DNA from: Cryomorphaceae bacterium
GTDB lineage: Bacteria; Bacteroidota; Bacteroidia; Flavobacteriales_G; Salibacteraceae
DNA: 18,259 nt
Reading direction: 5' to 3'
NCBI GenBank assembly: GCA_003564735.1
Contig: PXEK01000277.1
Coordinates: 1-18,259, forward strand
In this document: one piece after another, positions 1 through 16,306 of the stretch
Position numbering within the stretch: the stretch's first letter is position 1
Layout of the letters: each line of letters begins with the position of its first letter
The notes under the pieces: model-generated
Told to the model about the DNA's origin: nothing
The model's database searches: none
Seen by the model: only the letters and a program-made list of their open reading frames with translations
Program-made: the position numbers and the translations under genes

Positions 1-1576
1 CTTCCCCTCGGGAGTCCAATACGATTAGCGTAGGAAAGCTCATAACGTGATTTAATGCCGGCAGGGCTTTTCCCGCATCTTTGGGCGCATAGCCCGTAAG
101 CAATACGGGAAAGCTCAAACCCAAATCACGCTGCATTTTTTCAACCGCCTTTTGGGCAAAGTCGTCATCGGCTTTACGCTCAAAGGCCAACCCGATAATC
201 TCTAATTCGTCGCGAGCGTATTTTTGGTAGAGTTGCTCCAAAAATAGGGCTTCATCTTTACAGTTGGGACACCAACTCCCCATTAAGGTGATAAGCACGG
301 GTTTGTTTTGAAAGCGCTCATCTCGCAAGGATACGGGATTTCGATCAAAGTCGCGAAACGTGAATTCCAATCGGTCATACCCTTCTTTGAGGTAGGTCAA
401 TGTTTTGGCATCGGCGAGTTCTGCCTGGTCGTTTCGCTCACCGGCAAACGGAGCGCGGTAGTGATTTCCCGAATGGTAAGTACCTCTGATTTGGTTGGGT
501 TCTGAAAAAGAGCCTGAAAATAAGTAGGCAAATGAACCGTCAAAGGTGGTCAACCTAAAGGAGTCTTGTATAACCCGGCCCGCAAGATGGCGGTAATCGC
601 CCGTATTGGTCATGAATGTGCCGTACAATGTGCCGCCGGTTTGGGTGAATACGGCTACGGCAGGGGTTTGTTTTTGGGGGTGTTCAAATGTAACGGCGTA
701 TTTTCCGGTGTAATCGTTTCCGGCTTCATTGGGCGGAATAAAGGCATATGAGGAGGCGAACGGAATTTCATAATCGTCGCCGCGGTCATAGTTTACCCAT
801 TTCCCCTCGGGCAGTTCATTGTACCGGTGAAAAAACATTTTACTGTTAAACACGGGAAAATCGGCGGTGTAGCCTTGATCGTCACGCTCTATTTTAAGAG
901 TAATGCGCTCGCTGCCGTTCACGATTTCAAGCTCATGATCGCGTTTAAATGCGGGCACGGTAAGGGTTTCATCATCAATATCAAAGTGTAAATACAACGG
1001 AATTTCAGACCCTTTAAAAACGCCTTGTACGGTAACCGATTTATCGATTAACCCCGCGATTTTGAGTGTAGATTCTATTCGGTAGCCGCGGCGGGGACGG
1101 TAAGTCAGTGTTTTACGGTATGAAAAAACTGCGGTGGTGTTGCTTACTTCAAAGGATACTTCAGTGGTTTTGTCACCGCGCATAAGCAAAGTCACGGTTT
1201 TGACTTTTTCTTTTTCGTTTTGCGCGGTGTATGTGTATCGGGTGAGTTGGGGCCCCGAGAGTGTAGCGGTATCTACGCTGTATTTAGACTCAGCCCCCGG
1301 AGCGTTGAATTCAGCAGCTTCGATAAAGGCCTGTAATTCCTTATTCCAAGCGGTACTGTCGGGTTCGTATTCTACTTTTTCGGTTTGATTGTTCTCTTCG
1401 ATTTTTTTAATCAAGGTCGCTTTTTCATCGGTTAATCTTTTGATTTCGTTTTGAAAGTCAAGGGGGATATCAAAAGGTTTGTTACCGGCTCGTTCATCCT
1501 TTCCTTGCCCGCATCCCACCGCCATTAGAATCACGGCGGCGCATAGGGTTCTGACCAAAAAAATACTTTTCATCAT
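1..1576 (-). CDS. TlpA-like thioredoxin-fold lipoprotein (partial, C-terminus off left edge)
   Basis: The minus-strand frame is open from the ATG pair at 1576/1573 to the window edge, giving 525 visible residues. The N-terminus is a lipoprotein signal: K3 and R9, a hydrophobic stretch, and a lipobox-like AVGC with C22, so the protein is probably anchored in an envelope membrane facing the periplasm. Residues about 35-55 are charged and may form a short coiled coil. A long beta-rich middle part (about 90-400) contains the GTFMTNTGDYRHLAG and TTFDGSFAYLF segments that commonly precede the redoxin domain in Bacteroidota TlpA-like proteins. The thioredoxin-like domain starts near 405 and has the redox pair WCPNC (C436, C439). 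Such proteins reduce or exchange disulfides; the substrate is unknown. It lies 46 bases downstream of rnr on the same strand and may be co-transcribed with it. The C-terminal end of the domain is missing only because the window ends. Confidence 0.88.
   Translation of the reverse strand, partial: MMKSIFLVRTLCAAVILMAVGCGQGKDERAGNKPFDIPLDFQNEIKRLTDEKATLIKKIEENNQTEKVEYEPDSTAWNKELQAFIEAAEFNAPGAESKYSVDTATLSGPQLTRYTYTAQNEKEKVKTVTLLMRGDKTTEVSFEVSNTTAVFSYRKTLTYRPRRGYRIESTLKIAGLIDKSVTVQGVFKGSEIPLYLHFDIDDETLTVPAFKRDHELEIVNGSERITLKIERDDQGYTADFPVFNSKMFFHRYNELPEGKWVNYDRGDDYEIPFASSYAFIPPNEAGNDYTGKYAVTFEHPQKQTPAVAVFTQTGGTLYGTFMTNTGDYRHLAGRVIQDSFRLTTFDGSFAYLFSGSFSEPNQIRGTYHSGNHYRAPFAGERNDQAELADAKTLTYLKEGYDRLEFTFRDFDRNPVSLRDERFQNKPVLITLMGSWCPNCKDEALFLEQLYQKYARDELEIIGLAFERKADDDFAQKAVEKMQRDLGLSFPVLLTGYAPKDAGKALPALNHVMSFPTLIVLDSRGE
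1546..1563 (-). repeat. GGTCAGAAC element, copy 1 (inside the TlpA-like gene)
   Basis: Read on the minus strand this is TTTTTTTGGTCAGAACCC, with an exact ten-base core at 1547-1556. It is the only copy inside a coding sequence and encodes residues around FLVRT of the lipoprotein signal peptide. The other five copies lie between genes. Confidence 0.7.
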
Positions 1577-1622
1577 AAAGTTACTTTGTGCGAATTATCA
1601 AAAACTTAAACAAAGAGGGTTA

Positions 1623-3785
1623 CTATTGCGAAAGCATTTCAAAATCAATACGTTTATTCACTAAATCGGCTTTGGTTACTTTGATTTTTATTTCGTCGCC
1701 AAGTTGATAGCTGCGTGAGGTGTTGTGCCCCAAAATACGGTGATGCTTTTCATCCAGGTAAAAATAATCGCCCGATATATCACGCAAACGTATCATGCCT
1801 TCGCATTTATTTTCAATGAGTTCCACGTAAATACCCCACTCGGTAACGCCGCTGATAACACCGTTAAATTCCTCGCCCACATACTCCTGCATGTACAGCA
1901 CTTGAAAGAATTTGGTGGAGTCGCGCTCGGCCTCTACCGCTTTGCGTTCCATCTCGCTACAGTGTTTACACAAACTTTCGTATCGGTCGCGGTCTGCCGA
2001 CTCTGCACCGTTCAAATAATCGGCTAAAAGTCTGTGAACCATAACGTCGGGATATCTCCTGATGGGTGAGGTAAAGTGGCTGTAGTGCGGGAAAGCCAAA
2101 CCGTAATGACCAATATTTCCCGTGCTGTACTCGGCTTTTGCCATGGTGCGTATGGCGAGGGTTTCAATCATTGTTTCCTCTCGTTTACCCTGTACTTCGC
2201 CCAGCAGTGAGTTGATGTTTTTGGAAATTTCGCTCTCCTTGGCGAATTTATATTTGTAACCGAATTTATTGATAAACGTGCTGAGGTCACGCAATTTTTG
2301 CGGATCGGGCTTGTCGTGAATTCGGTAAATAAAGGTTTTGGGTTTGGGGTTGCTTTTACTCACTTTACCTATCATTTCGGCAATCGACTTGTTGGCCAAG
2401 AGCATGAATTCCTCTATGAGTTTGTTCGCCTCTTTTTGGGCTTTAAACACCACACTTTCGGGCTCTTTATCTTCGTTCAACACAAATTTGAGTTCAACTT
2501 TATCAAAGGCTATAGACCCGTTTTTGAGTCGGTTCGATCTCATTTTCACGGCCATTTTGTTGAGCGTGGTAAGTGCCTCGGCGTGTTTTCCCTTTCCTGT
2601 TTCAATCACTTTTTGCGCCTCTTCATAAGTGAAGCGCGTATCAGAGAGGGTTACGGTTCTCACGGGTTTAAAATCGATGACTTTCCCCGATTCGTCCATT
2701 TCAAACAGCACTGAAAATGTGAGTTTTTCCTCGTTGGGTCTCAATGAGCAAACGTTGTTTGATAAAATCTCGGGTAACATAGGCACTACGCGATCAACCA
2801 AATAAACCGATGTTGCACGTTCAACGGCCTCTTTGTCCAGCACGTCACCTTCTTTCATGTAATGCGAAACATCGGCAATGTGTACGCCAACGCGATATTT
2901 GCCGTTTTCGAGTTTTTCAAAGGACAGGGCATCGTCAAAATCTTTGGCATCGTGCGGGTCAATGGTAAAGGTTTCTACCTCGCGCATATCCAGCCGCTCT
3001 TCAATATCTTTTTTGGTAATTTTTATAGGCAGGTCGGCCGCGTATTTCTCCACATGTGCGGGGAATTTTTCGGGGAAACCGTGAGTATGCAAAATGGAGT
3101 CCATCTCCGTGGCGGGTTTATAAGCATCTCCCAGCACTTTAATTACTTCACCGAACGGACTCGAAGCATCTTTGGGCCAATCGGTCATTTTCACCACCAC
3201 CTTTTGTTTGTCTTTGGCCCCGGCCAATTTGTCGAGGGGCACGTAAACATCAACCGGCATTTTTTGGTCGTCGGGAATGAGGAATGCGAACTTTTTGGAA
3301 GCTTCAATTGTCCCCACAAACTCGGTTTTTGCCCGTTTCACAATTTCGGTGATTTGCCCCTCGGGTCCTTTTCGTTTTTTACGCGCTAAAATGAAAACCT
3401 TCACCGTATCGCCGTGCAGCGCATTGTACATAAACTTTGGCGGTATGTAAATATCTTTTTCGCTCTCCTCGCTTACTACGTATGCCGAGCCGCTTTTCGT
3501 CATATCCACCACACCCGTTACCACGGCTTTTTTCACCACCAACTTGTATTTGCCGCGTTCCACTTCCTTTAAAGTCTTATCCGCTTTGAGTTGTTCCAAT
3601 TGGTTAGCTACCAGTTTTCTATCGTGATTATTGTCAATATTCAAAGCCGCTGAAGCCTGCTTGTAATTCAGCGCTTCTTGGGGGTTTTGATTAAATAAGT
3701 TTAACAGTGCTCGTTTGAGTTGCTTACCGCTGATTTTAGCGTTTGGTTTACCTTTGCCTTTCTTGGTTTTTTTCTTTTTTGCCAT
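1623..3785 (-). CDS. rnr: Ribonuclease R (3'-5' exoribonuclease)
   Basis: A 720-residue RNase II/R family protein of usual length. Order of parts: lysine-rich N-terminal tail (MAKKKKTKKGKGK), winged-helix-like region about 20-85, two cold-shock/OB domains about 86-245, RNB catalytic domain about 265-595, and a C-terminal S1 domain about 635-718. The catalytic metal-binding motif TIDPHDAKDFDDAL is intact; D276, D282, D284 and D285 have the spacing of the four E. coli RNase R active-site aspartates. HFTSPIRRYPD (570-580) is the second conserved catalytic segment. The enzyme processively degrades structured RNA in mRNA turnover and rRNA quality control in the cytoplasm. The start at 3785 is the first ATG and preserves the basic tail. 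The gene ends with TAG. It is divergent from ferritin across 138 bases and followed closely by the TlpA-like gene. Confidence 0.97.
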   Translation of the reverse strand: MAKKKKTKKGKGKPNAKISGKQLKRALLNLFNQNPQEALNYKQASAALNIDNNHDRKLVANQLEQLKADKTLKEVERGKYKLVVKKAVVTGVVDMTKSGSAYVVSEESEKDIYIPPKFMYNALHGDTVKVFILARKKRKGPEGQITEIVKRAKTEFVGTIEASKKFAFLIPDDQKMPVDVYVPLDKLAGAKDKQKVVVKMTDWPKDASSPFGEVIKVLGDAYKPATEMDSILHTHGFPEKFPAHVEKYAADLPIKITKKDIEERLDMREVETFTIDPHDAKDFDDALSFEKLENGKYRVGVHIADVSHYMKEGDVLDKEAVERATSVYLVDRVVPMLPEILSNNVCSLRPNEEKLTFSVLFEMDESGKVIDFKPVRTVTLSDTRFTYEEAQKVIETGKGKHAEALTTLNKMAVKMRSNRLKNGSIAFDKVELKFVLNEDKEPESVVFKAQKEANKLIEEFMLLANKSIAEMIGKVSKSNPKPKTFIYRIHDKPDPQKLRDLSTFINKFGYKYKFAKESEISKNINSLLGEVQGKREETMIETLAIRTMAKAEYSTGNIGHYGLAFPHYSHFTSPIRRYPDVMVHRLLADYLNGAESADRDRYESLCKHCSEMERKAVEAERDSTKFFQVLYMQEYVGEEFNGVISGVTEWGIYVELIENKCEGMIRLRDISGDYFYLDEKHHRILGHNTSRSYQLGDEIKIKVTKADLVNKRIDFEMLSQ

Positions 3786-3816: not shown

Positions 3817-3836
3817 TTTTATTTTGGTCAGAACCG
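3817..3836 (+). repeat. GGTCAGAAC element, copy 2 (rnr-ferritin intergenic)
   Basis: TTTTATTTTGGTCAGAACCG, with the exact ten-base core at 3826-3835. It sits in the divergent intergenic region, 31 bases outside the rnr start and 87 bases before the ferritin ATG, pointing toward ferritin. Confidence 0.75.
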
Positions 3837-3923: not shown

Positions 3924-4436
3924 ATGATATCACAGAAAATTGAAGAGAAACTGAATGTGCAAATCGGGAGGGAAGCCGCCTCCTCACAGCTTTACCTATC
4001 GATGGCCTCTTGGGCTGAGGTGGAAGGCTTTGAAGGAGTTGCCGAGTTTTTATATCGCCAATCAGATGAAGAGCGCGACCACATGCTTAAGCTCATAAAG
4101 TTTGTCAATGAACGGGGCGGGAAGGCAATTGTTCCCGCATTGGAAAAACCGCCCGCCAAATTCGTTTCCATGCGCAGCGTGTTTGAAGATTTACTGGCCC
4201 ACGAGCGCGAAATCACAAATGCCATTAACGAATTGGTGTTTATCACCTTGGAAGAGAAAGATTACACCACTCACCGCTTTTTGCAGTGGTACGTTGAAGA
4301 GCAGTTAGAAGAGGAAGCACTGGCACAAACCATTCTGGACAAGCTCAAACTCATCGGAGATGACAAAGGCGGCGGCTTATATCTTTTTGATCGCGATATT
4401 ACGAGTATGTCTGCAAGTCCGGCAAGTGAGGAGTAG
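3924..4436 (+). CDS. ftnA: Non-heme ferritin (iron storage)
   Basis: A 170-residue four-helix-bundle ferritin of the bacterial FtnA type, close to the usual length. Every ferroxidase-centre residue known for E. coli FtnA is present at the same number: E17, E50, H53, E94, Q127 and E130. There is no sign of the bacterioferritin haem-binding methionine pattern. The protein assembles into a 24-subunit cytoplasmic shell that oxidises Fe(II) and stores the mineral, limiting free iron and oxidative damage. The gene is divergent from rnr and 47 bases upstream of the dioxygenase gene, which has its own -7 element. No terminator is visible between them, so read-through is possible. Ferritin next to an Fe(II)-dependent dioxygenase may be chance. 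It ends with TAG. Confidence 0.96.
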   Translation: MISQKIEEKLNVQIGREAASSQLYLSMASWAEVEGFEGVAEFLYRQSDEERDHMLKLIKFVNERGGKAIVPALEKPPAKFVSMRSVFEDLLAHEREITNAINELVFITLEEKDYTTHRFLQWYVEEQLEEEALAQTILDKLKLIGDDKGGGLYLFDRDITSMSASPASEE

Positions 4437-4483: not shown

Positions 4484-5014
4484 ATGAGTATAAAAAAGCC
4501 TTTCAATCTCTTTCGTTGGATTGATGATAACCGCGATTTGCTGAAACCCCCGGTGGGCAATAAAAATCTCTATCCCGAGGGTACCGATTATATTGTGATG
4601 GTCGTGGGCGGCCCCAATGCTCGTAAAGATTATCACTACAATGAAACAGAGGAATTATTCTTTCAGTTAGAAGGCGATATACTTGTGAAAATTCAGGAAA
4701 ACGGCAAATCTGTTGATGTCCCCATTAAAGAGGGCGAAATGTTTTTGTTGCCGCCCAAAGTGCCGCATTCTCCCATACGCAGTGAAGGCTCTGTGGGGTT
4801 GGTGATTGAGCGTATTCGCACAAAGGAACATACCGACGGACTTTTGTGGTTTTGCGACAAGTGTAACCACAAATTGCATGAAGTTTATTTCCCGCTTACC
4901 AACATTGAGAAAGACTTTTTACCTCGATTCAAAGAGTTTTACAACTCCTTGGAGCTGCGCACGTGCGACAATTGCGGTCACGTAATGGAAGCCGATGAGC
5001 GCTTTACCGATTAA
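4484..5014 (+). CDS. nbaC: 3-hydroxyanthranilate 3,4-dioxygenase
   Basis: A 176-residue cupin of typical bacterial length. It opens the ring of 3-hydroxyanthranilate with O2 to give 2-amino-3-carboxymuconate 6-semialdehyde in the cytoplasm. The Fe(II) ligands H51, E57 and H95 and the substrate-binding R47, R99 and E109 sit at, or within one residue of, the positions known from the Cupriavidus metallidurans enzyme. The C-terminal rubredoxin-like metal site of bacterial forms is complete: C124/C127 (CDKC) and C160/C163 (CDNC). The next gene encodes the enzyme for the very next step, 57 bases downstream, so the two likely form an operon. Earlier pathway enzymes (tryptophan dioxygenase, kynurenine monooxygenase, kynureninase) are not in the window. 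An alternative symbol is haao. Confidence 0.96.
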
Positions 5015-5032
5015 GTTTAGTAACTCCTTTGA

Positions 5033-5051
5033 TTTTTTATGGTCAGAACCC
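5033..5051 (+). repeat. GGTCAGAAC element, copy 3 (between nbaC and the decarboxylase gene)
   Basis: TTTTTTATGGTCAGAACCC, with the exact ten-base core at 5041-5050. It lies in the 57-base gap between two genes of one pathway, 20 bases before the next ATG. It differs from other copies by an A directly before the T that adjoins the core. Confidence 0.75.
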
Positions 5052-5071
5052 GATAAAAACCAATAATATAT

Positions 5072-6091
5072 ATGGACAGCAATTCCTTAAAGATAGATAT
5101 GCACACGCATATCCTCCCCAAACAACTCCCGAATTTCGCCGAAAAATTTGGTTACGGTGATTTCATTCACCTAATCCAAAATGATGATGATACCGCCGAT
5201 ATGATGAAGGGCGGCGAATTTTTCAGACGCATCAAAAGCAACTGCTGGGATGCGGAGTTACGCATGAAAGAGTATGAAGAATTTGATACGCGCGTTCAGG
5301 TGGTTTGTACCATCCCGGTGATGTTTTCTTATTGGGCAAAGGCCGCTCATACTCTTGAACTTGCCAAATTTTTAAATGACGACATTGCAAATCTGGCAGC
5401 AAAATATCCAAAGCGCTATATCGGTTTAGGCACGGTTCCGATGCAGGACGCTAAGTATGCCATTGAAGAGTTGGAGCGAATCAAAGAAATTGGATTAAAA
5501 GGCATACAAATAGGTTCCAATATTAACGACCTCAATTTATCAGAGCCCGAATTCTTCCCCATTTTTGAAGCCGCTCAAGATTTAAACCTCGCCGTGATGA
5601 TTCACCCTTGGAACATGATGGGTTTTGACGACATGAGAAAATACTGGTTGCCTTGGTTGGTAGGCATGCCCGCAGAAACATCTCGCGCCGCTTGCTCTTT
5701 GATTTTTGGGGGAGTATTGGAGAAACTTCCTAACCTAAGGGTGAATTTCTCACATGCGGGCGGAGCATTTTTACCTACCTTGGGGAGAATTGAACACGGT
5801 TTTAACTGCCGCCCCGATTTGGTAGCGATCGACAATGATAAGAATCCGCGCGAGTACCTCGGTAAATTTTGGGTTGATTGTATAACACATGATCTCAAAT
5901 TGCTTGAGTACATTCTCGATTTACAAGGTTCAAATCGCGTGACGTTGGGTTCTGACTATCCTTTCCCTTTAGGAGATTTGGAGATAGGAAAGTTTATAGA
6001 GGAATCGAATCTCAGCAATCAAATTAAAGAGGATATTTTTTGCAATGCCACTTTAGAGTGGTTAGATATGAATAAAAGCGAGTTGCTTTAA
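5072..6091 (+). CDS. nbaD: 2-amino-3-carboxymuconate-6-semialdehyde decarboxylase (ACMSD)
   Basis: A 339-residue metal-dependent amidohydrolase-superfamily decarboxylase, the usual ACMSD length. The N-terminal HxH metal motif (DMHTHILP, H11 and H13), H178 in the MIHPWN segment, H228 in NFSHAGG and D295 in LGSDYPFPLGD match the ligand and catalytic residues expected for the family. It decarboxylates the unstable product of the preceding dioxygenase to 2-aminomuconate 6-semialdehyde, diverting flux from quinolinate/NAD synthesis into catabolism. Immediate linkage with the dioxygenase makes the assignment firm within an otherwise broad family. The semialdehyde dehydrogenase and deaminase expected next in the pathway are absent; downstream lies an unrelated aminotransferase with its own promoter-like element. 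Confidence 0.95.
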   Translation: MDSNSLKIDMHTHILPKQLPNFAEKFGYGDFIHLIQNDDDTADMMKGGEFFRRIKSNCWDAELRMKEYEEFDTRVQVVCTIPVMFSYWAKAAHTLELAKFLNDDIANLAAKYPKRYIGLGTVPMQDAKYAIEELERIKEIGLKGIQIGSNINDLNLSEPEFFPIFEAAQDLNLAVMIHPWNMMGFDDMRKYWLPWLVGMPAETSRAACSLIFGGVLEKLPNLRVNFSHAGGAFLPTLGRIEHGFNCRPDLVAIDNDKNPREYLGKFWVDCITHDLKLLEYILDLQGSNRVTLGSDYPFPLGDLEIGKFIEESNLSNQIKEDIFCNATLEWLDMNKSELL

Positions 6092-6094
6092 TGG

Positions 6095-6113
6095 AGATTA
6101 AAAAAATCTTTTT
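6095..6113 (+). terminator. Weak candidate terminator after the ACMSD gene
   Basis: AGATT (6095-6099) and AATCT (6105-6109) can pair across a loop of five A, followed by four T. The stem is short and AT-rich, so termination here is only possible. Confidence 0.3.
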
Positions 6114-6141
6114 GTCACCTGTAAAAATATTGTAAAGTTTT

Positions 6142-6149
6142 TATCTTTG
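6142..6149 (+). promoter_or_regulatory. -7 promoter element for the aminotransferase gene
   Basis: TATCTTTG matches TAnnTTTG and ends 21 bases before the ATG at 6171. The nearest upstream TTTG (6111-6114) is 27 bases away, longer than the usual spacing, so only the -7 part is supported. Confidence 0.5.
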
Positions 6150-6170
6150 ACGCCATAAAACTACCACTAT

Positions 6171-7355
6171 ATGCAAGGAAAAACTACCAAAAAAATATGG
6201 TTATCTCCCCCGCACATGAGCGGTGAAGAGTTGAAACATGTTCAGGAAGCCTTTCGAGATAACTGGGTTGCTCCCGCCGGGCCTCATTTGAAAACAATGG
6301 AGTCAAAGCTAAAAGAGTTTTTTAATGTTGAGTCTGCAGCCGTTCTCACCTAGGGAACCGCAGCACTTCACTTGGCTTTAATTAACTTAGAAGTAGGCCC
6401 CGGCGATACGGTTTTGGTTCAAAGCTTGACTTTTTCGGCCTCGGCTAACCCGATTAAATACTTGGGTGCAGAACCTGTTTTCATTGACTCTGAAAGAGAC
6501 ACCTGGAACTTGGATCCTGAATTGGTGATTGAAGCCATTGAAGATTTAACGGCAAAAGATAAAAAACCCAAGGCCATCATCGCCGTTGATCTTTATGGTA
6601 TGCCGGCTAAATGGGCCGAACTTCAAAGTATAGCCACAGAATTTGATATTCCTATTATAGAAGACTCCGCAGAAGCGGCCGGTTCTACTTTTATGGGTAA
6701 AAAATGTGGATCGTTTGGCAGAATGGCGGTCGTATCCTTCAACGGAAATAAAATTATAACCACGGGTGGAGGAGGGGCACTGCTCTCCAATGATTGGAAT
6801 TTGGTAAATCACGCTCGTTTTTTGAGTACCCAAGCCAAAGACAATGCTCCCCACTATCAACATTCTTATGTGGGGTATAATTACCGGATGAGTAATATAA
6901 CCGCAGGAATAGGTATCGGACAATTGGATTGTTTGCCTGAGCGGGTGCTGCAACGGCGTCATAATTTCGATTTGTATTTTCGTGAGTTGAATGAGGTGGA
7001 AGGAATATCCTTCTTATTGGAACCTTATGGTTTTTACAGTAATCGCTGGTTAACTACCCTCATGATTGATCCCGCTCAAACGGGTGGAATCAATAGAGAG
7101 CACGTTAGATTAGCCCTTGAGAGTGAGAACATTGAAAGTAGACCGGTTTGGAAACCCCTGCACATGCAACCCGTCTTTAAAGATTGTCTGTTTTACGGCA
7201 ACGGCGTTAGTGAAGATGTTTTCCGGTACGGTTTGTGTCTGCCATCAGGCTCATGCATGACTGAGGATGAAGTGAAACGAGTAGCTTTCCTTGTCAAAAA
7301 GGTGATTAAACAACAGAAATTTCAATATAATACAGATATTCTACAAGAGAATTAA
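6171..7355 (+). pseudogene. DegT/DnrJ/EryC1 family PLP aminotransferase, interrupted by an in-frame TAG
   Basis: The reading frame encodes a complete 394-codon DegT-family sugar-aminotransferase-like protein, but codon 61 (6351-6353) is TAG. The frame continues unbroken on both sides, so this is a substitution, not a frameshift. The stop falls inside the conserved SGTAALHLAL motif: the sequence reads AVLT, stop, GTAALHLAL, replacing the residue usually Ser or Asn before GT; TCG to TAG is a one-base change. All else looks intact: D165 for the PLP ring nitrogen (EDSAEA), and the Schiff-base lysine K194 in SFNGNKIITTGGGG. Relatives transaminate nucleotide-linked keto-sugars for surface glycans. 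No glycan genes are adjacent. Translation from downstream would lack about 60-65 N-terminal residues. It is either a recent nonsense mutation, a suppressed stop, or a sequence error; TAG is a normal stop for rnr, ferritin and the HKD gene here. Confidence 0.85.
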
Positions 7356-7382
7356 TTTATCCCGTGTTTGATTAGCCATCGG

Positions 7383-7390
7383 TAGTTTTG
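7383..7390 (+). promoter_or_regulatory. -7 promoter element for the DUF4412-like gene
   Basis: TAGTTTTG matches TAnnTTTG and ends 26 bases before the ATG at 7417. A TTTG at 7367-7370 is only 12 bases upstream, too close for a standard -33 element. Confidence 0.45.
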
Positions 7391-7416
7391 AATGGGGGAT
7401 TTTAAAAACCAAAATC

Positions 7417-8067: not shown

Positions 8068-8122
8068 TAGGACTCTGCAGTTATTTTCGACTGTCTAAAA
8101 TTAACTGACTACAAACTTTAAT

Positions 8123-8153
8123 AAAGGCTGTCTGTAAAAAGGCGGTCTTTTTT
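8123..8153 (+). terminator. Rho-independent terminator after the DUF4412-like gene
   Basis: AAAGGCTGTC (8123-8132) pairs with GGCGGTCTTT (8141-8150) through a ten-base-pair stem containing three G-U pairs, across an eight-base loop, and is followed by three more T. It ends the transcript that starts near 7390. Confidence 0.75.
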
Positions 8154-8221
8154 GTAGTTTATAATTTGCAGAGGTCCGACTCTTGGTAACTATAATTTAT
8201 AGCACGCGTTAATGGAGGCGC

Positions 8222-8881: not shown

Positions 8882-8904
8882 CAAAAGGAATGAGAATTTT
8901 TACC

Positions 8905-8912
8905 TAAATTTG
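8905..8912 (+). promoter_or_regulatory. -7 promoter element for the desaturase-holA unit
   Basis: TAAATTTG matches TAnnTTTG and ends 38 bases before the desaturase ATG at 8951. No -33 element is clear at the normal distance. Confidence 0.45.
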
Positions 8913-8950
8913 CCACGATATATTTCAAGTATTTAAAAGTTAATTTCAGT

Positions 8951-10093
8951 ATGCAAGCGCAACCCAGACACACCTTTGAACCTGCGAAAAATAAAGATTT
9001 CTTTCCGACCTTAAGAAAGCGTGTGAACGCTTATTTTAAAGAAAATAATATTTCGAAGTACGCTACTACGGAAACAAAAGTTAAAGCTGTCATTATGTTT
9101 GCAGCCTATCTTATTCCTTACGCTTTTATTTTGTCGGGCATGTTTACCACGGCCGGTGCCATAATCTTGCTCTACGTTCTTATGGGACTCGGTAAAGCAG
9201 GAATAGGTTTAAATATAATGCATGACTCTAACCACGGCACTTTCTTTAAAAAGAAGAAATTAAATAAACTCATGCAGCTTTCCATGAATGCTATAGGTGG
9301 AAGCGATATTGCATGGCAATACCAGCATAATTATTTGCATCATTCTTTCACCAATATAGCGGGTTCCGACATGGATATTGAGACTACGGTCTTAATGCGC
9401 AACTCTCCGTTGCAAAAATGGCGTGCGTTCCACCGCTTTCAGCACATCTACTCTTGGTTGTTATACGGCTTAGGTACGTTCTCAAGGGTATTATTCCGGG
9501 ACTTTTTATTACTACCCATGGCCTACAAAGACGGTTACATTAAAACGAAACAAGAATACCGTCGAGAGATGTTCAAAATAATCACTTCAAAAGTTATTTA
9601 CTTTTCAGCTATGCTGTTGTTGCCTTACTTACTTTTACCGGTATCTTTTGGGGTAATATTCCTAGCTTTCTTTGTGATGCATTTCGTGACAGGCTTTATT
9701 TTGAGTTTGATTTTTGTATGTGCTCACGTAATGCCTACGTCCGATTTCATTTCTCCTGAACAAAGCGGTAAAGTTGACGAAAACTGGGCAGTACACCAAA
9801 TGAGAACCACTACCAACTTTGCTCAGCACAAAAGAATTTTTTCTTGGTTCATTGGCGGACTAAACTATCAAGTTGAGCACCACTTGTTCCCGAATATGAG
9901 TCACGCTCATTACCGACCTATTTCAAAAATTGTAAAACAAACAGCAGATGAGTTTGGTGTACCTTATCATACGTATCCATCTTTTATAGGTGCTGTAGCT
10001 TTGCACGGAAAAATGCTTCATAAATTTAGTAAAAAGAGCACATCCGGTGAAATGCGAGGTGCTGAGCCGGTAGTATCCAACCCTTTACTATAA
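8951..10093 (+). CDS. Membrane fatty-acid (acyl-CoA/acyl-lipid) desaturase
   Basis: A 380-residue integral membrane desaturase with all three di-iron histidine boxes: HDSNH (H91, H95), HNYLHH (H126, H130, H131) and QVEHH (Q307, H310, H311). The third box with Q in place of the first H is typical of front-end and linoleoyl-CoA-type desaturases. Hydrophobic segments lie about 45-90 and 212-262, giving the usual four-span fold with the boxes on the cytoplasmic side. There is no fused cytochrome b5 domain, so an external electron donor is expected. It inserts a double bond into membrane fatty acyl chains, probably adjusting membrane fluidity; regiospecificity cannot be read from sequence. holA begins 10 bases downstream, so the two are probably co-transcribed, though functionally unrelated. 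Confidence 0.93.
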   Translation: MQAQPRHTFEPAKNKDFFPTLRKRVNAYFKENNISKYATTETKVKAVIMFAAYLIPYAFILSGMFTTAGAIILLYVLMGLGKAGIGLNIMHDSNHGTFFKKKKLNKLMQLSMNAIGGSDIAWQYQHNYLHHSFTNIAGSDMDIETTVLMRNSPLQKWRAFHRFQHIYSWLLYGLGTFSRVLFRDFLLLPMAYKDGYIKTKQEYRREMFKIITSKVIYFSAMLLLPYLLLPVSFGVIFLAFFVMHFVTGFILSLIFVCAHVMPTSDFISPEQSGKVDENWAVHQMRTTTNFAQHKRIFSWFIGGLNYQVEHHLFPNMSHAHYRPISKIVKQTADEFGVPYHTYPSFIGAVALHGKMLHKFSKKSTSGEMRGAEPVVSNPLL

Positions 10094-10103
10094 TTAAAGC
10101 TGC

Positions 10104-11102
10104 ATGGATTTTCAACAGCTTTTAACGGATATCAAACAACAGAAGTTTAAGCCTGTATATTTATTACACGGTCAAGAACCTTATTTTATTGATACCATCT
10201 CAAAAGCTCTGGAAAAACATACCCTCACCGAAGAGGAGAAAAGTTTTAATTTGACGGTGATGTACGGCAAAGACTCCGACGTAAATCAACTCATGGAGTC
10301 GGCAAAGCGCTACCCCATGATGGCCGAAAGACAGGTGGTTATCGTCAAAGAGGCACAGGGGATGCGAAATATCGAAGCTATTGAGAGTTATCTGGCGAAC
10401 CCGTTGCCCACAACTGTTTTGGTCATAGCTTACAAAGGCAAAAAGGTTGACGGTCGAAAAAAGTGGCTCAAGTTGGCTCAAAAAAACGGCGTTGAATTTT
10501 TTTCTAAACCCATTTATGAGAATCAGGTTCCCGCTTGGGTTGAGAAATATTTGAAGGGAAGAAACTACCAAATTTCGCCAAAAGCCGCGGCGTTAATCGC
10601 GGAATCGTTGGGTACGGATTTAGCTAAAATCACTAATGAATTGGACAAGCTGATGCTTAATGTTGAGGCAGGTACAACCATAGATGAAAATCATGTAGAA
10701 ACGAATATAGGCGTAAGTAAAGACTTTAATAATTTTGAGCTTCAAAATGCTATCGGTCATTTGAATCACGCCAAGGCTCAACAAATTGCGCTCTATTTCG
10801 CACAAAATACCAAAGACCATCCTCCTATTGTTACGATTTCGGTTTTGATGAAGTTTTTTACTCAGGTGATGTGTGTTTTCTTCGAAAAAAATAGGGATAA
10901 GTTTACTATCGCAAAAAAAATCGGGGTGAATCCTTATTTCGCGGGTGATTATATAACCACCGCTCAGAATTACTCGGGAAAAAAGGTGATGGAAAATATT
11001 ACGCTGTTACGCGAATATGACGGGAAAATAAAAGGGGTGGAGACTGCCAAGGTTGAACAGGGTGACTTGGTTCGAGAGTTGGTTTGGCGATTGATGAATT
11101 AA
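10104..11102 (+). CDS. holA: DNA polymerase III subunit delta (clamp loader)
   Basis: A 332-residue HolA-family protein of usual length. The N-terminal AAA+-like domain begins with KPVYLLHGQEPYFID (residues 16-30), the hallmark of delta; as in the family, this replaces a functional Walker A loop, so no ATP binding is expected. The middle is a three-helix segment around 160-200 (SPKAAALIAESLGTDLAKI, then a helix with NELDKLML), and the C-terminal collar domain starts near SKDFNNFELQNAIGHL and ends in GDLVRELVWRLMN. Delta is the wrench that opens the beta sliding clamp during replication. It is essential in model bacteria. It sits 10 bases after the desaturase gene and is followed by the bidirectional terminator at 11195-11233. 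Confidence 0.94.
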   Translation: MDFQQLLTDIKQQKFKPVYLLHGQEPYFIDTISKALEKHTLTEEEKSFNLTVMYGKDSDVNQLMESAKRYPMMAERQVVIVKEAQGMRNIEAIESYLANPLPTTVLVIAYKGKKVDGRKKWLKLAQKNGVEFFSKPIYENQVPAWVEKYLKGRNYQISPKAAALIAESLGTDLAKITNELDKLMLNVEAGTTIDENHVETNIGVSKDFNNFELQNAIGHLNHAKAQQIALYFAQNTKDHPPIVTISVLMKFFTQVMCVFFEKNRDKFTIAKKIGVNPYFAGDYITTAQNYSGKKVMENITLLREYDGKIKGVETAKVEQGDLVRELVWRLMN

Positions 11103-11170
11103 GTCTCGATTCGCTTTACTGTCTCAGAAATTCATATTTCACTGATCTATTTCTATCTCATAGCTTTTAG

Positions 11171-11186
11171 TGTTCTGACCAAAAAA
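11171..11186 (-). repeat. GGTCAGAAC element, copy 4 (between holA and its terminator)
   Basis: Read on the minus strand: TTTTTTGGTCAGAACA. The nine-base core is exact; the last base is A where the other copies have C. It lies 68 bases after the holA stop and 9 bases before the terminator stem. Confidence 0.65.
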
Positions 11187-11194
11187 TAATCCAT

Positions 11195-11233
11195 AAAAAA
11201 ACCCGAATTTCAATTTGAGATTCGGGTTTTTTT
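11195..11233. terminator. Strong bidirectional rho-independent terminator
   Basis: A perfect 14-bp stem, AAAAAAACCCGAAT (11195-11208) and ATTCGGGTTTTTTT (11220-11233), around an 11-base loop. With A and T tracts on the two sides it should stop transcripts from holA on the plus strand and from the OB-fold/lamin-tail gene on the minus strand, which converge here. Confidence 0.92.
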
Positions 11234-11250
11234 GAAAGAGTATTGTCGTT

Positions 11251-13698
11251 CTATTGAACTACGATGCGAATGACTTCACCTTTGGCTTTGATGAGGTACA
11301 TACCCGAGCTCAAGTGATTTACGTCCAAGTTATTCACTCGGTTTTGTTTGATGAGCATTTTACCGCTGATATCAAAAAGTTCAACATCAACAGTCTCGCT
11401 AAAGTTCAACACGCCCGTACTTACCGGGTTGGGATAAGCTTTTATTGTGGCGTTAGGTGTGTAATCGGTTACACTTAAAATCACACCGCCCGCGTTGCTT
11501 TCACCGGGTGTAGAGGTTTCAAAAGTTACCCAAGCTTCAGCGCCGTCATCCTCACGTCCGTATGAATGATCAGCGGCAAGAGATACAGCATTCACCTCGT
11601 CTACAGATGTGCTTCCGTCAGGCGTGTACAGCCCTACAAAAGTTTCATCTTGTAATTCGAATCCGGTGTAAAGAGCTCCGGTTTCTTCTTGCGTGCTCGC
11701 CCAAATGATGGCGAATTCACCCGCTGCAACGGTTGTTTGGTTTTCATGACAACGTGGAATGCGATAAAGCTCGGTGTGATTTTCATCGTTTGTGATGAAA
11801 TGACCGGCTAAATCGATAGCCTCACTGCGACCGTTGTAAATCTCAATCCAGTTTGTATATGCGTTGTTGTCGTCTTCAATTACGCTTTGGTTGTTTGTCA
11901 TTACTTCATTAATGTAAACATCTTCTAGAGCAGGCACGGGCAGCTCTTGAATGTCATACACAAACATGGGGAAAATTTGGAACCCGCTGTTGAACGGCGG
12001 ATTAAAGCCCGTGAACTGTCCACCGATTCCGGTAAGGTGAAATAAACCTGAGGGAGCTTGTGGCATGGTGTCGGCAATGAGCGTGCTGCGATCAATACGC
12101 ATAAGAAAAGTGTCTCCGTCTAGTGAAACAATATCAACATTAGAGCTGTTTCCGGGTGTAGGCCATTGATTTTCATCTATAACACTTACGTTTCTCAACT
12201 CAATGTAATGAGAGTTTGTAGATTGATCTAACTCAGTTACAATGGTAGGGAAAGGAATACAATTGTCTTGAGAAAGGAGTTGAATGGTGTCGGGCTCAAT
12301 CTGGATGAGTCCGCGGAACTGGCCGATTTGACCGAATACTCGAATCTCGTCACCTTCTTGAGCATCATAGTTGTCTACGTCATTGAAAGAAAAAACGTTG
12401 ATACCGCCCGTTTCATCGATGATGGTGAATTGATGTCCGTTACCGCGAAAGTCTATGCCGTAAACGATGCCTTCAACAGCGCAGTATACATTTAGTGAAT
12501 CGGCAACACCGTCGTTATCTGTTGATGTTACCGTACCTATAGAATAGAGGGGAACCGGTGTAGGTTCAGCGCCGCTTGTATCTTGAGTTCCACACGTTGT
12601 GTCCACATCGGTGTAGTAGCGGGGTAGTAGTTGGTAGCCGCTTAGAAAAGGTGAGGAGTTATCAAATTGCCCTCCTATTCCCGTTACGCTGCAAAGTGAG
12701 TCGCCTATGGCAAAAGAAATGCTGTCACCTACATCAGTGTTGCCTAAAATTCTGACCGTAAAATTATTGGTGCCGTCGGTTACATCAACATTGAAGTCAA
12801 AGCCACCGCCTACACTCACTACTTCCAAGTTTTCGAGAGTTACGAGTTGACTTTCAGTAGATTCATTCAATTCTGTTACTACTGAAGGAGAGGGGATAGG
12901 GTTACCCGAGTTCACATGAACTACAGTGTCTAGGCTCATTTGTGTAAGACCGTTAAACTGATCTACAGAGCCGCCTATTATAAGGGAGTCACCTTCATTA
13001 ACGGTGTAGCCCCAATCATTTGAAGGACTAAAAGTACCTATTCCGGCATTGTCATCCCAAAGGGTGAATTGCAATCCGTTACTTCTTGCGTTCACACCCA
13101 ATACAACACCTTTTGTGAAGCATTGAACACCTAGCGAATCGGCCACTCCTAATGTATCAATTGTTGTTATGGTGCTTATAGGATACATAGGGGTAAGGCC
13201 TGAAGGCGGAGGCGTAGATACGGGGGTGCCTAAAATGAGTACATCCCTAAGTCTTTTTCTTGAAGGACTGTTAGGTCTGGTGAATCGAATTTGCAAGTTG
13301 CTACCGGTAACTGTAAGCGTATCAGGCCCCGAGGGAAGATACGTTGAGCCGGTGGGCGTGGGCGAGTCGAACGACTGAGCTGTCCAAGTGGTACCGCCGT
13401 CGTTGGAAACGTCAACTGTAATGGGGCCGTCACCTCCCGATCCCCACTTAGCAACGCTAAATGAAATATTCACGTCGGTGAAACCTGAAAGGTCAAGCGT
13501 GGGTGTAGCCAGAGTTGAAGTGTCTTCTTCTAAGCGGGCATAGCCGCCGGCTGCGGTTTGCATATCAATATCCACTGCAGTCCAACCTGTAGGAACATTT
13601 CCGTCACGCAGCTCTTCAAATAAGATGGTATCCTGCTGCGCATTCAGAACAAACGCACTACAGATGAAGCAGGCGATTGATAGTAATTGTTTTTCCAT
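11251..13698 (-). CDS. Secreted T9SS protein with tandem OB-fold-like repeats and a lamin-tail domain
   Basis: An 815-residue exported protein. A signal peptide (MEKQLLSIACFICSAFVLNAQ) is followed by a jelly-roll-like region about 25-158 (ILFEELRDGNVPTGW; ISFSVAKWGSGGDGPITVDV), then two similar units of roughly 195 residues (about 172-365 and 385-582). Each starts (M/L)Y(S/P)I with GVADSL and contains QFT(L/I) plus TGIGGQF, and each probably holds two OB folds. Residues 590-700 look like a lamin-tail domain (VYINEVMTNN, NWIEIYNG, AIDLAGHFITND, FAIIWAS). The C-terminus (YPNPVSTG, LFDISGKML, LSSGMYLIKA) is a type A T9SS sorting domain, so it should reach the cell surface or medium. No catalytic motif is visible, which suggests a binding or scaffold role. 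It is divergent from the HKD gene, whose OB unit is related. Function is inferred. Confidence 0.85.
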   Translation of the reverse strand: MEKQLLSIACFICSAFVLNAQQDTILFEELRDGNVPTGWTAVDIDMQTAAGGYARLEEDTSTLATPTLDLSGFTDVNISFSVAKWGSGGDGPITVDVSNDGGTTWTAQSFDSPTPTGSTYLPSGPDTLTVTGSNLQIRFTRPNSPSRKRLRDVLILGTPVSTPPPSGLTPMYPISTITTIDTLGVADSLGVQCFTKGVVLGVNARSNGLQFTLWDDNAGIGTFSPSNDWGYTVNEGDSLIIGGSVDQFNGLTQMSLDTVVHVNSGNPIPSPSVVTELNESTESQLVTLENLEVVSVGGGFDFNVDVTDGTNNFTVRILGNTDVGDSISFAIGDSLCSVTGIGGQFDNSSPFLSGYQLLPRYYTDVDTTCGTQDTSGAEPTPVPLYSIGTVTSTDNDGVADSLNVYCAVEGIVYGIDFRGNGHQFTIIDETGGINVFSFNDVDNYDAQEGDEIRVFGQIGQFRGLIQIEPDTIQLLSQDNCIPFPTIVTELDQSTNSHYIELRNVSVIDENQWPTPGNSSNVDIVSLDGDTFLMRIDRSTLIADTMPQAPSGLFHLTGIGGQFTGFNPPFNSGFQIFPMFVYDIQELPVPALEDVYINEVMTNNQSVIEDDNNAYTNWIEIYNGRSEAIDLAGHFITNDENHTELYRIPRCHENQTTVAAGEFAIIWASTQEETGALYTGFELQDETFVGLYTPDGSTSVDEVNAVSLAADHSYGREDDGAEAWVTFETSTPGESNAGGVILSVTDYTPNATIKAYPNPVSTGVLNFSETVDVELFDISGKMLIKQNRVNNLDVNHLSSGMYLIKAKGEVIRIVVQ

Positions 13699-13724
13699 AA
13701 TAAAATTTTTGTTTGAATTTGGAG

Positions 13725-13732
13725 CAAAAGTA
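13725..13732 (-). promoter_or_regulatory. -7 promoter element for the OB-fold/lamin-tail gene
   Basis: On the minus strand TACTTTTG matches TAnnTTTG and lies 26 bases upstream of the ATG at 13698. No -33 TTTG is visible at the normal spacing. Confidence 0.45.
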
Positions 13733-13925
13733 AGGGCTTCACTTTTGTTACCGTGTTACGAGAATATTAAATACACGTTGATTTCTTTTGAAATTTTTGA
13801 GTTATGAACAATTTCGAACTAACTCCTTAAACCTTTGTTCCCTAAATCCCGCACTGATTACGGATACTTGATTCTTTTTAAATTCTGTTTCACTTGAAAG
13901 ATTGTGAGAAACATGTGTAAAAAAA

Positions 13926-13943
13926 AATATTGAGGTAATATGA
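13926..13943 (+). repeat. Shared upstream motif, copy A
   Basis: AATATTGAGGTAATATGA lies 55 bases before the ATG at 13999. It matches 17 of 18 bases of the copy at 16343-16360, also upstream of a T9SS-type secreted protein. It may be a regulatory site. Confidence 0.4.
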
Positions 13944-13998
13944 ATTTAACCTACCCTGATTGGGATTATAGTAATTTCGCGTCCAAATAATTTTCAAT

Positions 13999-16242
13999 AT
14001 GTACAGTAAAATTTCTATGACACTGATTGCGGCTCTGTTCGCTTGTGGAGGTGTAATATCTCAGGTAAGCGATATAGCAAATGCGCGATCTCAAACTTTA
14101 GGTTCCATTGTTACGGTTAAAGCTATCGTGACAACGGGAACGTCACTTGATCCTTCGTCGGGATCGACACGCTACTTTCAAGATGCAACGGGCGGTCTAT
14201 CAGCGTTTGGTAATGATTTGGCGCCGGTACAACTAGGTGATAGTATAATTATTACAGGTGAGCTTTCTGAGTTTTTTCAACTCAAGCAAATTTCTCCTAT
14301 CACTAATGTACAAATCGTGAATTCGGGGAATCCCTTGCCAAACCCCGAGGTGTTATCTATCAATGACGCCATGCAAGAATCCAAAGAATGCATGTTGGTT
14401 CAAATTCCCACCGTTACTTTTGATCAAGGCGGTAGTTTTTCAGGTCAATCCAACTACACCATAACTGACGCTTCCGGCTCGGGCACTTTACGTGTTAACG
14501 GGAATACGAACTTGGTGGGCAGTCCTATTCCGGCAGGTCAGGTAGGTGTTACGGGAGTCATAGGCCGGTTTAACGCCAATCAGCAAATTTTACCACGATC
14601 GGTAAATGACGTTGGAATTTTAAGCGGACCCGAGTTCGCTGAACTACCTAAACAAACCAATATTCAAACCAATGCCTTCGACTTGGAGTTTTCAAGCGAT
14701 GATGTCGTTTCCTCATTTATTGAATGGGGTGAAACACAGGATATGACCGAGACGCCTTTGGTGAGCACATCTGATGATACCGAGCATATTTTTACGCTAT
14801 CCGGACTTCAACCCGCCTCATTTTACTACGCCCGAGCGGGATTGGTTGAGGGTCAAGATACGTCATTATCGCCCGTAGGATTTTATAGCACCAAATCACT
14901 TTCTACAGGTAATATTAAGGTATGGTTCAACGCACCTGTTGATACAACCGTGGCTACCGAAAAAGTAGCTATGAATGTGGGCAGTACCGTGGTTGACAGC
15001 ATTATTGCCATGATTGAAAGTGCTCAAAGTACCTTGGATATCGCTATTTACAACTGGAATAACAGCGGTATTCGCGATATGTCACAGTCTATTAATGATG
15101 CCCACAACCGCGGCGTTCAGGTGCGTATGATTACCGACAGAAGCACGGCCACTCTGGGTTTTAATGATTTGGTTCAAGGCGTACCTACATTGGAGAGTCC
15201 TTCCGGTCAAACCTATGGTTTGATGCACAACAAATTTGTGATTGTAGATGCCGAAGATAATGACCCCAACGTTCCTCAGGTGCTCACCGGGTCGCTTAAC
15301 TGGACTGATGGCCAAGTGAATCGGGATCCCAACAATACGGTTGTTTTTCAAGATCAAGCCTTAGCTCGTGCCTATACTTTGGAGTTTGAGGAAATGTGGG
15401 GCAGTACCGGCGCAACACCCAATTTTTCCATGTCTAAATTCGGACCGGACAAGTCAAGCAACACCCCGCGTTTGTTCATGCTCAATGAAACTCCCGTAGA
15501 GCTGTTTTTTAGTCCTACCGATGCCGTGGAAACCAACATCACAAACAGTATCTCTGCCGCCACCGATGATATTGAGGTGGCTACCATGCTTATGACCCGC
15601 ACACCTTACGCCTATGCCGTGCGCAATGCGGTGAGAGATAACGGAGTTTACGGCGGATTTATCATTGATGATACCAGCTACCAAAACTCCACACTGCCTT
15701 TCTCATTGGTTTCTGAAGCTTTGAATGAGGGTGAGCATTTATTTGTTCACAACAGGCCCAATACTCTTCACCATAAATACGCCATTGTTGATCAGTCTAA
15801 CCCCTTTACCGGCGACCCTCGCGTAATCACGGGTTCACACAACTGGTCAAATGCAGCGAACCTTCGTAATGATGAAAATACCGTGATTATTCACAGTGCC
15901 GAAATTGCCAATATCTTCTTTCAAGAGTGGGTGAGACGCTTTACCGACTTGGGCGGAGAGGATTATATCGTAATCGCCTCGGCAGAAAGTGAGATATACA
16001 ACGAGCGCACCGTGAGCGTGTATCCCAACCCTTTTGCGAATGAAATCAACATAGCCGCTCCTCAATTAACAGGTGATGTGAGTATTAGGTTATACGATAT
16101 TTCAGGAAAACTCATAAAGCAGTACCACCAAAATCAAAGTGATATAATGCGCTTGAATACGTTTGATATTCAGTCCGGAATTTACATTCTGGAAATTGAA
16201 AATGAAGGAAAGCGCACGCGGCAAAAGGTGGTGAAACCATAG
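13999..16242 (+). CDS. Secreted T9SS protein with OB-fold unit and two phospholipase D (HKD) motifs, possible nuclease
   Basis: A 747-residue exported protein. A signal peptide covers about 1-21 (cleavage near VIS before QVSD). Residues 22-210 form one OB-fold-like unit related to those of the divergent neighbour (compare VNSGNPLPNPEV with VNSGNPIPSPSV). An Fn3-like part follows (about 213-300). Then come two PLD-like halves: HNKFVIVD (H410, K412, D417, followed by GSLNW) and HHKYAIVD (H591, K593, D598, followed by GSHNW). Paired HxKxxxxD motifs build one active site for phosphodiester hydrolysis. The TLDIAIYNW and SINDAHNRGVQVRMITDRST segments resemble PLD-family nucleases more than lipases. 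The C-terminus (YPNPFANEINI from Y675, LYDISGKLIK, SGIYILEI) is a type A sorting domain. A likely role is extracellular nucleic acid cleavage; lipid or other phosphodiester substrates are not excluded. It ends with TAG. Confidence 0.88.
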   Translation: MYSKISMTLIAALFACGGVISQVSDIANARSQTLGSIVTVKAIVTTGTSLDPSSGSTRYFQDATGGLSAFGNDLAPVQLGDSIIITGELSEFFQLKQISPITNVQIVNSGNPLPNPEVLSINDAMQESKECMLVQIPTVTFDQGGSFSGQSNYTITDASGSGTLRVNGNTNLVGSPIPAGQVGVTGVIGRFNANQQILPRSVNDVGILSGPEFAELPKQTNIQTNAFDLEFSSDDVVSSFIEWGETQDMTETPLVSTSDDTEHIFTLSGLQPASFYYARAGLVEGQDTSLSPVGFYSTKSLSTGNIKVWFNAPVDTTVATEKVAMNVGSTVVDSIIAMIESAQSTLDIAIYNWNNSGIRDMSQSINDAHNRGVQVRMITDRSTATLGFNDLVQGVPTLESPSGQTYGLMHNKFVIVDAEDNDPNVPQVLTGSLNWTDGQVNRDPNNTVVFQDQALARAYTLEFEEMWGSTGATPNFSMSKFGPDKSSNTPRLFMLNETPVELFFSPTDAVETNITNSISAATDDIEVATMLMTRTPYAYAVRNAVRDNGVYGGFIIDDTSYQNSTLPFSLVSEALNEGEHLFVHNRPNTLHHKYAIVDQSNPFTGDPRVITGSHNWSNAANLRNDENTVIIHSAEIANIFFQEWVRRFTDLGGEDYIVIASAESEIYNERTVSVYPNPFANEINIAAPQLTGDVSIRLYDISGKLIKQYHQNQSDIMRLNTFDIQSGIYILEIENEGKRTRQKVVKP

Positions 16243-16253
16243 AACTTTGCTTA

Positions 16254-16269
16254 TTTTGGTCAGAACCCC
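16254..16269 (+). repeat. GGTCAGAAC element, copy 5 (left arm of inverted pair)
   Basis: TTTTGGTCAGAACCCC, with the exact core at 16258-16267, starting 12 bases after the stop of the HKD gene. It is paired with copy 6 in opposite orientation. Confidence 0.8.
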
Positions 16270-16304
16270 GAACGGTGTAACAACGTTTGGGGTTCTGACC
16301 AAAA
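16254..16304. repeat. 21-bp inverted repeat formed by copies 5 and 6
   Basis: 16254-16274 pairs with 16284-16304 over 21 positions with a single G-T pair (16270/16288), around a nine-base centre that can pair twice more. The stem carries T on the left and A on the right, the reverse of a rho-independent terminator, and no T run follows on either strand. It may still act as an RNA hairpin at the 3' end of the HKD gene transcript. Confidence 0.85.
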
Positions 16305-16306
16305 AA
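16289..16306 (-). repeat. GGTCAGAAC element, copy 6 (right arm of inverted pair)
   Basis: Read on the minus strand: TTTTTTGGTCAGAACCCC, with the exact core at 16291-16300. It is the best match to the consensus of all six copies. Confidence 0.8.

Follow-up and report, generated by a model that had tools for sequence, protein, structure and literature searches.

A genus-specific word dispersed through Salibacter genomes and its probable role as a DNA uptake sequence

The window, i.e. the whole stretch of 18,259 nucleotides that was analysed, corresponds to contig C286 of genome G000, a 2.29-Mb assembly in 406 contigs with a completeness of 83%. The genus name Salibacter for G000 rests on its kinship with two further genomes of the same genus, namely G001, which was identified as Salibacter halophilus KCTC 52047 (referred to as S. 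halophilus in the following), and G002, identified as the MAG SRR4030052_bin.21 (CAJXMT01), which is 94% complete; both identifications rest on equal motif counts. Within the window, the nine-base core GGTCAGAAC occurs in six exact copies, with cores at 1548-1556, 11172-11180 and 16292-16300 on the minus strand and at 3826-3834, 5041-5049 and 16258-16266 on the plus strand, whereas 0.09 copies are expected from dinucleotide shuffling and none of 200 shuffles contained six or more. Five copies share the ten-base form GGTCAGAACC, with GGTCAGAACA in its place at 11180. Each of the six is immediately preceded on its 5' side by a T-rich tract (TTTTTT in three copies, TATTTT in two and TTTTAT in the copy at 5041). 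These observations agree with a first-pass annotation of the window, which had reported the six copies and their positions, the ten-base form common to five of them and the T-rich tract before each core. The copies and their surroundings are as follows.

1547..1562, minus strand: copy 1, TTTTTTGGTCAGAACC; probably genic, in the first codons (signal-peptide region) of the minus-strand ORF 2..1576
3820..3835, plus strand: copy 2, TATTTTGGTCAGAACC; in the gap between the divergent genes for RNase R (1623-3785, minus strand) and ferritin (3924-4436, plus strand)
5035..5050, plus strand: copy 3, TTTTATGGTCAGAACC; in the gap between the genes for 3-hydroxyanthranilate dioxygenase (4484-5014) and an amidohydrolase (5072-6091)
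11171..11186, minus strand: copy 4, TTTTTTGGTCAGAACA, with A as tenth base; in the convergent gap between the genes for DNA polymerase III delta (10104-11102) and a protein with a T9SS tail (11251-13698)
16252..16267, plus strand: copy 5, TATTTTGGTCAGAACC; 3' of the gene at 13999-16242, left arm of an inverted pair
16291..16306, minus strand: copy 6, TTTTTTGGTCAGAACC; right arm of the inverted pair

Five copies are thus intergenic, as had been annotated, and the sixth (1547-1556) falls within the initial codons of ORF 2..1576, the start of which presumably encodes a lipoprotein signal peptide (lipobox), or just outside the gene if this starts at 1525. The latter start was chosen by our own simple codon-usage ORF caller, with which all genes were called, and copy 1 was therefore scored as intergenic in the genic and intergenic counts given below. 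The neighbours (RNase R, ferritin, 3-hydroxyanthranilate dioxygenase, amidohydrolase, DNA polymerase III delta and two T9SS-tail proteins) are functionally unrelated, which had also been noted before. The dioxygenase followed by the amidohydrolase at 4484-6091 resembles a kynurenine-pathway pair. The gene at 13999-16242, which adjoins the inverted pair, encodes a PLD-domain protein that ends in a T9SS sorting tail and is possibly secreted.

The two copies at 16258 and 16300 fold as a hairpin (-41.8 kcal/mol, z -8.0) located 3' of the gene that ends at 16242. This hairpin at a gene end and the intergenic location of five of the six window copies are what a transcription terminator or promoter element would lead one to expect, and terminators of both classical families with uptake sequences, Neisseriaceae and Pasteurellaceae, often carry the uptake motif (PMC13020248). 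However, the hairpin at 16252-16306 is followed by no T run and is absent from the 14 terminator-like sites found by the scan of the window, nearly all copies of the motif are single, and 49 to 83% of them, depending on the genome, are genic, which makes a terminator or promoter element a very unlikely explanation.

The genome-wide count, which had been proposed as a check, revealed 406 occurrences of GGTCAGAAC in G000 (199 and 207 on the two strands) compared to 6 of the reversed word, i.e. a number far above chance. Among 60 genomes (G000 and 59 relatives), only the three genomes of the genus are rich in this word (406, 500 and 667), and the maximum among the other relatives is 52 (G049, control 13; the count in G047 is 34, control 1). 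In de novo counts of 8-10-mers, the motif word and its variants likewise ranked highest in all three genus genomes. A better core is GGTCAGANCC, for which the whole-genome counts versus the reversed control are 486 versus 2 in G000, 1482 versus 4 in S. halophilus and 824 versus 0 in G002, corresponding to about one site per 4.7 kb, 2.1 kb and 3.4 kb, respectively, with balanced strands in all three genomes (241/245, 739/743 and 424/400). The other 57 sampled relatives contain 1-38 copies. Within the family, three of three Salibacter genomes but none of 32 other genomes are motif-rich, and among 394 other genomes sampled evenly across the phylum the highest count is 163 (control 15), followed by 146 (control 29), both in family f32.

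In sampled stretches of 303 kb (G000), 880 kb (S. halophilus) and 325 kb (G002), 87, 399 and 88 sites were counted, while 0.4, 1.7 and 0.4 are expected under a Markov-4 model with the sites masked, which amounts to a 202- to 234-fold enrichment. The G000 contigs of this sample were partly picked as site-bearing, and their density (87 in 303 kb) is higher than that of the genome as a whole (486 in 2.29 Mb). Four G000 loci (L109 and L111-L113) read as N and lie outside the counts. The six window copies belong to a genus-specific, genome-wide signal.

Smaller excesses were seen elsewhere. In four genomes of the distant family f32 of the same phylum (G062, G067, G072 and G077), GGTCAGANCC is 4-11 times as frequent as the reversed control, perhaps due to composition, perhaps not. 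Two genomes of the same class show a small excess far below the genus level (G047, 26 versus 0; G049, 32 versus 4), and an 80-kb sample of G047 contained no strong dispersed word. A search for other dispersed words in nine other genomes (55-80 kb each), which a sparser code could escape, revealed none of comparable strength; the best words had 8 occurrences versus 0.34 expected (G014) and 6 versus 0.27 (G003), compared to 18 versus 0.44 in an 80-kb sample of S. halophilus. A scan of IMG/VR for TTTTGGTCAGAACC gave one match apiece in the 80 loci listed, out of 120 stretches, and two AUK197 MAG contigs sharing the 16-mer contain one core each.

The motif differs between the species. The inner core GGTCAGA.CC is common to all, whereas base -1 is mostly T or mostly C and base 7 is mostly A or one of T, G and A, depending on the species. 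G000 and G002 mostly use TGGTCAGAACC and have in common TnTTGGTCAGAACC, after which come C or G and then A-rich bases, and S. halophilus mostly uses CGGTCAGA(T/G/A)CC, with C at -1 in slightly more than half of the sites and T at -4 in most of them. The variation at base 7 in S. halophilus is apparent from the counts of GGTCAGATCC (68), GGTCAGAGCC (56) and GGTCAGAACC (48) in 400 kb, none of which occur in the reversed sequence. Copies with one mismatch exceed the reversed control by 36 in G000, 325 in S. halophilus and 38 in G002, and the ratio of exact sites to near-miss excess is 1:0.41, 1:0.81 and 1:0.43, respectively. A related word, TATTCAGAACC, was found 18 times in G002 versus 0 for the reversed control (325 kb sampled) and is possibly a second dialect there.

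The T-rich flank is alike in genic and intergenic copies, being somewhat stronger in the latter, and conservation of the flanks declines within about 10-16 bases on either side of the core. AT-rich positions recur at about -7/-8, -10/-11, -17 and -20 in all three species, which might reflect helical phasing. Close pairs of sites (up to 60 bp apart) number 2 among 87 sites for G000, 9 among 399 for S. halophilus and 3 among 88 for G002 (random means 1.4, 10.8 and 1.4), and 13 of the 14 pairs are inverted, while 6.8 are expected under random placement. The inverted-pair layout inferred from the window is hence less well supported, as the pairs are few and their frequency is at chance, though nearly all are inverted. 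The strong hairpin formed by the window pair and the prevalence of inversion would fit a mobile or palindromic repeat of MITE or REP-like type that is dispersed in the genome. Such a repeat is largely refuted by the flank profiles, in which conservation fades close to the core and no longer common unit exists, and given the chance frequency of close pairs and the many genic copies we attach almost no credence to it.

With respect to genes, 49 of 87 sites in G000, 146 of 175 sites in the first 400 kb of S. halophilus and 43 of 88 sites in G002 lie within called genes, at coding fractions of 83%, 85% and 83%, respectively. Since the density of intergenic sites relative to genic sites is 1.05 in S. 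halophilus and 3.6 and 5.1 in G000 and G002, we conclude that the sites of S. halophilus are placed as if genes were irrelevant, whereas G000 and G002 favour intergenic DNA; the intergenic preference suggested earlier thus applies to two species but not to S. halophilus. The density of intergenic sites is similar across divergent, tandem and convergent gaps, and in S. halophilus the genic sites are evenly distributed along genes. The signal is therefore not confined to promoters, and a promoter or regulon site was ranked low because sites are both genic and intergenic and the gap types are alike.

Two further leanings of the genic sites were observed. Of 238 genic sites in G000, G001 and G002, 142 are oriented opposite to the gene (p 0.003), and such sites favour the 5' half of genes in G002 (27 of 39, p 0.02), with no such lean in the other two genomes (23 of 42 in G000 and 76 of 139 in S. 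halophilus). Neither would be predicted by an uptake tag alone, and codon constraints might account for them.

On contig C1 of S. halophilus, no strand bias was detected over 400 kb (89 sites on the plus strand versus 86 on the minus strand), although the GC skew keeps one sign in eight of eight bins, which suggests that this stretch represents one replication arm. Chi sites, the recombination hotspots read by RecBCD or AddAB enzymes, are usually oriented with replication. A Chi-like hotspot would fit a motif that is short, asymmetric, genus-specific and dispersed through genes, but in view of the missing orientation bias, the more than 200-fold enrichment and the T-rich flank with its species dialect we consider it quite unlikely, and for lack of orientation bias on this stretch a replication-oriented motif was ranked low as well. 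The spacing of sites on C1 is random (CV 1.02), and its longest tag-free gap (15.9 kb, p 0.13) is within chance. One of the four longest tag-free gaps, which spans 10 kb, bears the type I restriction-modification genes HsdM and HsdS (L152, 14265-19961). As the longest gap is within chance, these data do not establish that the motif is depleted in horizontally acquired DNA, a feature of uptake sequences as a class.

Between species, sites are retained over short distances. In unselected alignments of G000 and G002 (34 kb, 75.3% identity), four of five G000 sites and four of six G002 sites are co-located, compared to 7.9% of identical ten-mers, and of the four common sites one is intergenic and three are genic; the figure of four of five leaves out alignment ends and 22 motif-selected G002 loci, in which eight of nine sites are shared. 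In DNA alignments with S. halophilus, none of three S. halophilus sites is shared with G002 and none of three with G000, and no G000 or G002 site falls inside those alignments. A protein-guided comparison, which includes distant ortholog pairs of about 30% identity, revealed three shared positions out of 7 and 9 sites for G000 and G002, three out of 9 and 13 for G002 and G001, and none out of 13 and 30 for G000 and G001. Since most sites are shared between G000 and G002 but none or few with S. halophilus, sites appear to persist between close species and to be mostly replaced between more distant ones, as would fit a self-recognition tag under drive, although the numbers are small.

The same data bear on the idea that the motif is bound by an abundant protein that is nucleoid-associated, organises the chromosome or regulates globally. 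The presence of hundreds of sites, on either strand, their retention between G000 and G002, the 3.6- and 5.1-fold intergenic density in two species and the lean of genic sites against the gene all speak in its favour. On the other hand, most S. halophilus sites are genic and even along genes, divergent promoters are not clearly preferred over convergent gene ends, the spacing is random, and no site is shared with S. halophilus in DNA alignments (the three positions common to G002 and G001 come from the protein-guided comparison). Moreover, a fixed ten-base core is unusually strict for proteins of this kind, and we regard such a binding site as unlikely. A mark of another kind, i.e. the target of a DNA-modifying system or a packaging signal favouring its own copies, would also be genus-specific, strand-balanced and maintained, as expected of any self mark. 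However, restriction targets are normally avoided in genomes rather than enriched, and we know of no described modification or packaging system that gives hundreds of exact copies, so that this explanation seems highly improbable.

The presence of competence genes had been proposed as another check. ComEC is encoded in G001 and G002 (and in 57 of the 60 genomes overall), as is a ComEA-like protein that has three HHH stretches and is hydrophobic near its N-terminus, whereas neither ComEC nor the three-HHH protein gave a match in G000, which is 83% complete. DprA was detected in all three genus genomes, in G000 as a fragment only. However, these genes discriminate little because ComEC is found in 57 of 60 genomes and DprA and HHH proteins are widespread. 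By its description, the Salibacter three-HHH protein matches one that is essential for transformation of Riemerella anatipestifer (PMC8459023).

The search for a type IV pilus gave a divided picture. T2SSE, T2SSF (searched in 14 genomes) and ComP_DUS were all matched in S. halophilus, which contains the following locus.

L188 (contig C13 of G001), 5339-16593: type II secretion/type IV pilus-like locus with GspE, a secretin-like protein (recognised by eye), GspF and several pilin-like proteins

The pilin beside GspE scores 28.4 bits against the Pfam family ComP_DUS (cut-off 27.3). In contrast, none of the three families had a match above the cut-off in G000 (83% complete) or G002 (94% complete), and the ComP_DUS cut-off was passed by five of the 60 genomes, of which the four besides S. 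halophilus are not motif-rich. Competence genes are present in the genus, but no type IV pilus reader of the Neisseria kind was detected in G000 and G002. A pilus or type II system as obligatory reader was rejected, since motif-free relatives possess GspE, GspF and pilins and neither T2SSE nor T2SSF was detected in these two genomes. Unless both assemblies lack it by chance, the pilus is consequently not the common reader.

Taken together, the genomes of the genus contain a genus-specific, strand-balanced, dialect-bearing and conserved word over their whole length. The idea of a genome signal, put forward in the first-pass annotation, passed the checks proposed there. Judging from these genomic patterns, we think it likely that GGTCAGANCC together with the preceding T-rich tract is a DNA uptake sequence, i.e. 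a self-recognition tag, of the halophilic marine genus Salibacter. In such a scenario, a surface receptor of a naturally competent cell would preferentially bind tagged double-stranded DNA. The DNA would then cross the outer membrane and be held by the three-HHH ComEA-like protein, and a single strand would pass inward through ComEC to be loaded by DprA and RecA for recombination; the genes for ComEC, DprA and the three-HHH protein are found in the genus, and the functions proposed here are those of their counterparts in Riemerella and other competent bacteria. Tagged alleles would be taken up and recombined more often, which could explain the observed accumulation and maintenance of the tag throughout the genome, in genic and intergenic DNA alike, and a drift of the receptor preference could have given rise to the observed species dialects.

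Regarding the literature, the main text of the one paper found to name S. halophilus (PMC7214798) mentions neither competence nor natural transformation, and no uptake or transformation of any Salibacter is reported in the literature found. A search on uptake sequences in Bacteroidota, Bacteroidetes or Flavobacter, which covered neither most subscription papers nor bioRxiv preprints, yielded only PMC11033201, PMC7965970 and PMC6561018 (the latter on Thermus), and as literal text GGTCAGAACC gave, among the matches listed, only titles on unrelated subjects. To date, no more than two unrelated families of bacteria are known to have self-DNA uptake tags, and a third case in another phylum would, if true, mean that such codes arise repeatedly. 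The motif could then serve as bait for finding the surface DNA receptor of Bacteroidota, and the barrier to gene exchange of a marine lineage would become readable from sequence. With the cultured type strain KCTC 52047 of S. halophilus, which was isolated from a saltern, the proposal is testable.

In comparison with known systems, the motif shares with Chi sites, which are short, asymmetric, over-represented and genus-specific, all of these features, but it differs from them by its balanced strands on the stretch tested, its far stronger enrichment and its conserved flank. Natural competence itself occurs in members of the phylum, and a preference for self DNA is reported for R. columbina (PMC7965970). 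The competence of Riemerella (Flavobacteriaceae), a member of the same phylum, resembles what we propose for Salibacter in that ComEC, DprA and the three-HHH protein needed there have Salibacter counterparts. The transposon hits of Riemerella in the accessible part of PMC8459023 include no classical pilus genes, and one essential protein is predicted to be located in the fimbrium. Unlike the Salibacter motif, the words listed in the accessible part of the k-mer Table 3 for Riemerella and Flavobacterium are A-rich, and the authors leave their function open (PMC7965970).

The uptake signal sequences (USS) of Pasteurellaceae resemble the Salibacter motif in their core of about 9-10 bp, the existence of two dialects and an AT-rich flank on one side. 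In the USS this flank follows the core, whereas in Salibacter it precedes it, and the motifs are unrelated. Pasteurellaceae use type IV pili, and the minor pilin PpdA/ComN is the predicted receptor (PMC12616744). The receptors known or predicted for such tags are type IV minor pilins, and this counts against the uptake reading for Salibacter because G000 and G002 gave no match to T2SSE or T2SSF above the cut-off.

The DNA uptake sequences (DUS) of Neisseriaceae comprise closely related dialects with a fixed inner core and near-miss copies (PMC3630211). The Salibacter motif is like them in its short asymmetric core, its hundreds to thousands of copies, its dialects around a fixed inner core and its near-misses. 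It is unlike them in that it belongs to an unrelated phylum, is otherwise a different motif with a T-rich flank before the core, has close pairs at chance frequency, though mostly inverted, and comes without a type IV pilus or ComP family match in G000 and G002. The sequence TCTGA is present on one strand of either motif, but a match of five bases may well be accidental. The Salibacter tag would have arisen independently of the DUS of Neisseria and the USS of Haemophilus, and in G000 and G002 it would apparently function with no type IV pilus. Since the pilus and ComP families of the DUS system were not detected in these two genomes, we refer to it as an independent variant. Whether it represents a third self-DNA uptake code of independent origin, and the first outside Proteobacteria, with a receptor that is no type IV pilin but part of the pilus-independent outer-membrane DNA uptake route of Bacteroidota, is in our estimation an evenly balanced proposition, while the case for a functional analogy of the putative tag to DUS and USS is strong.
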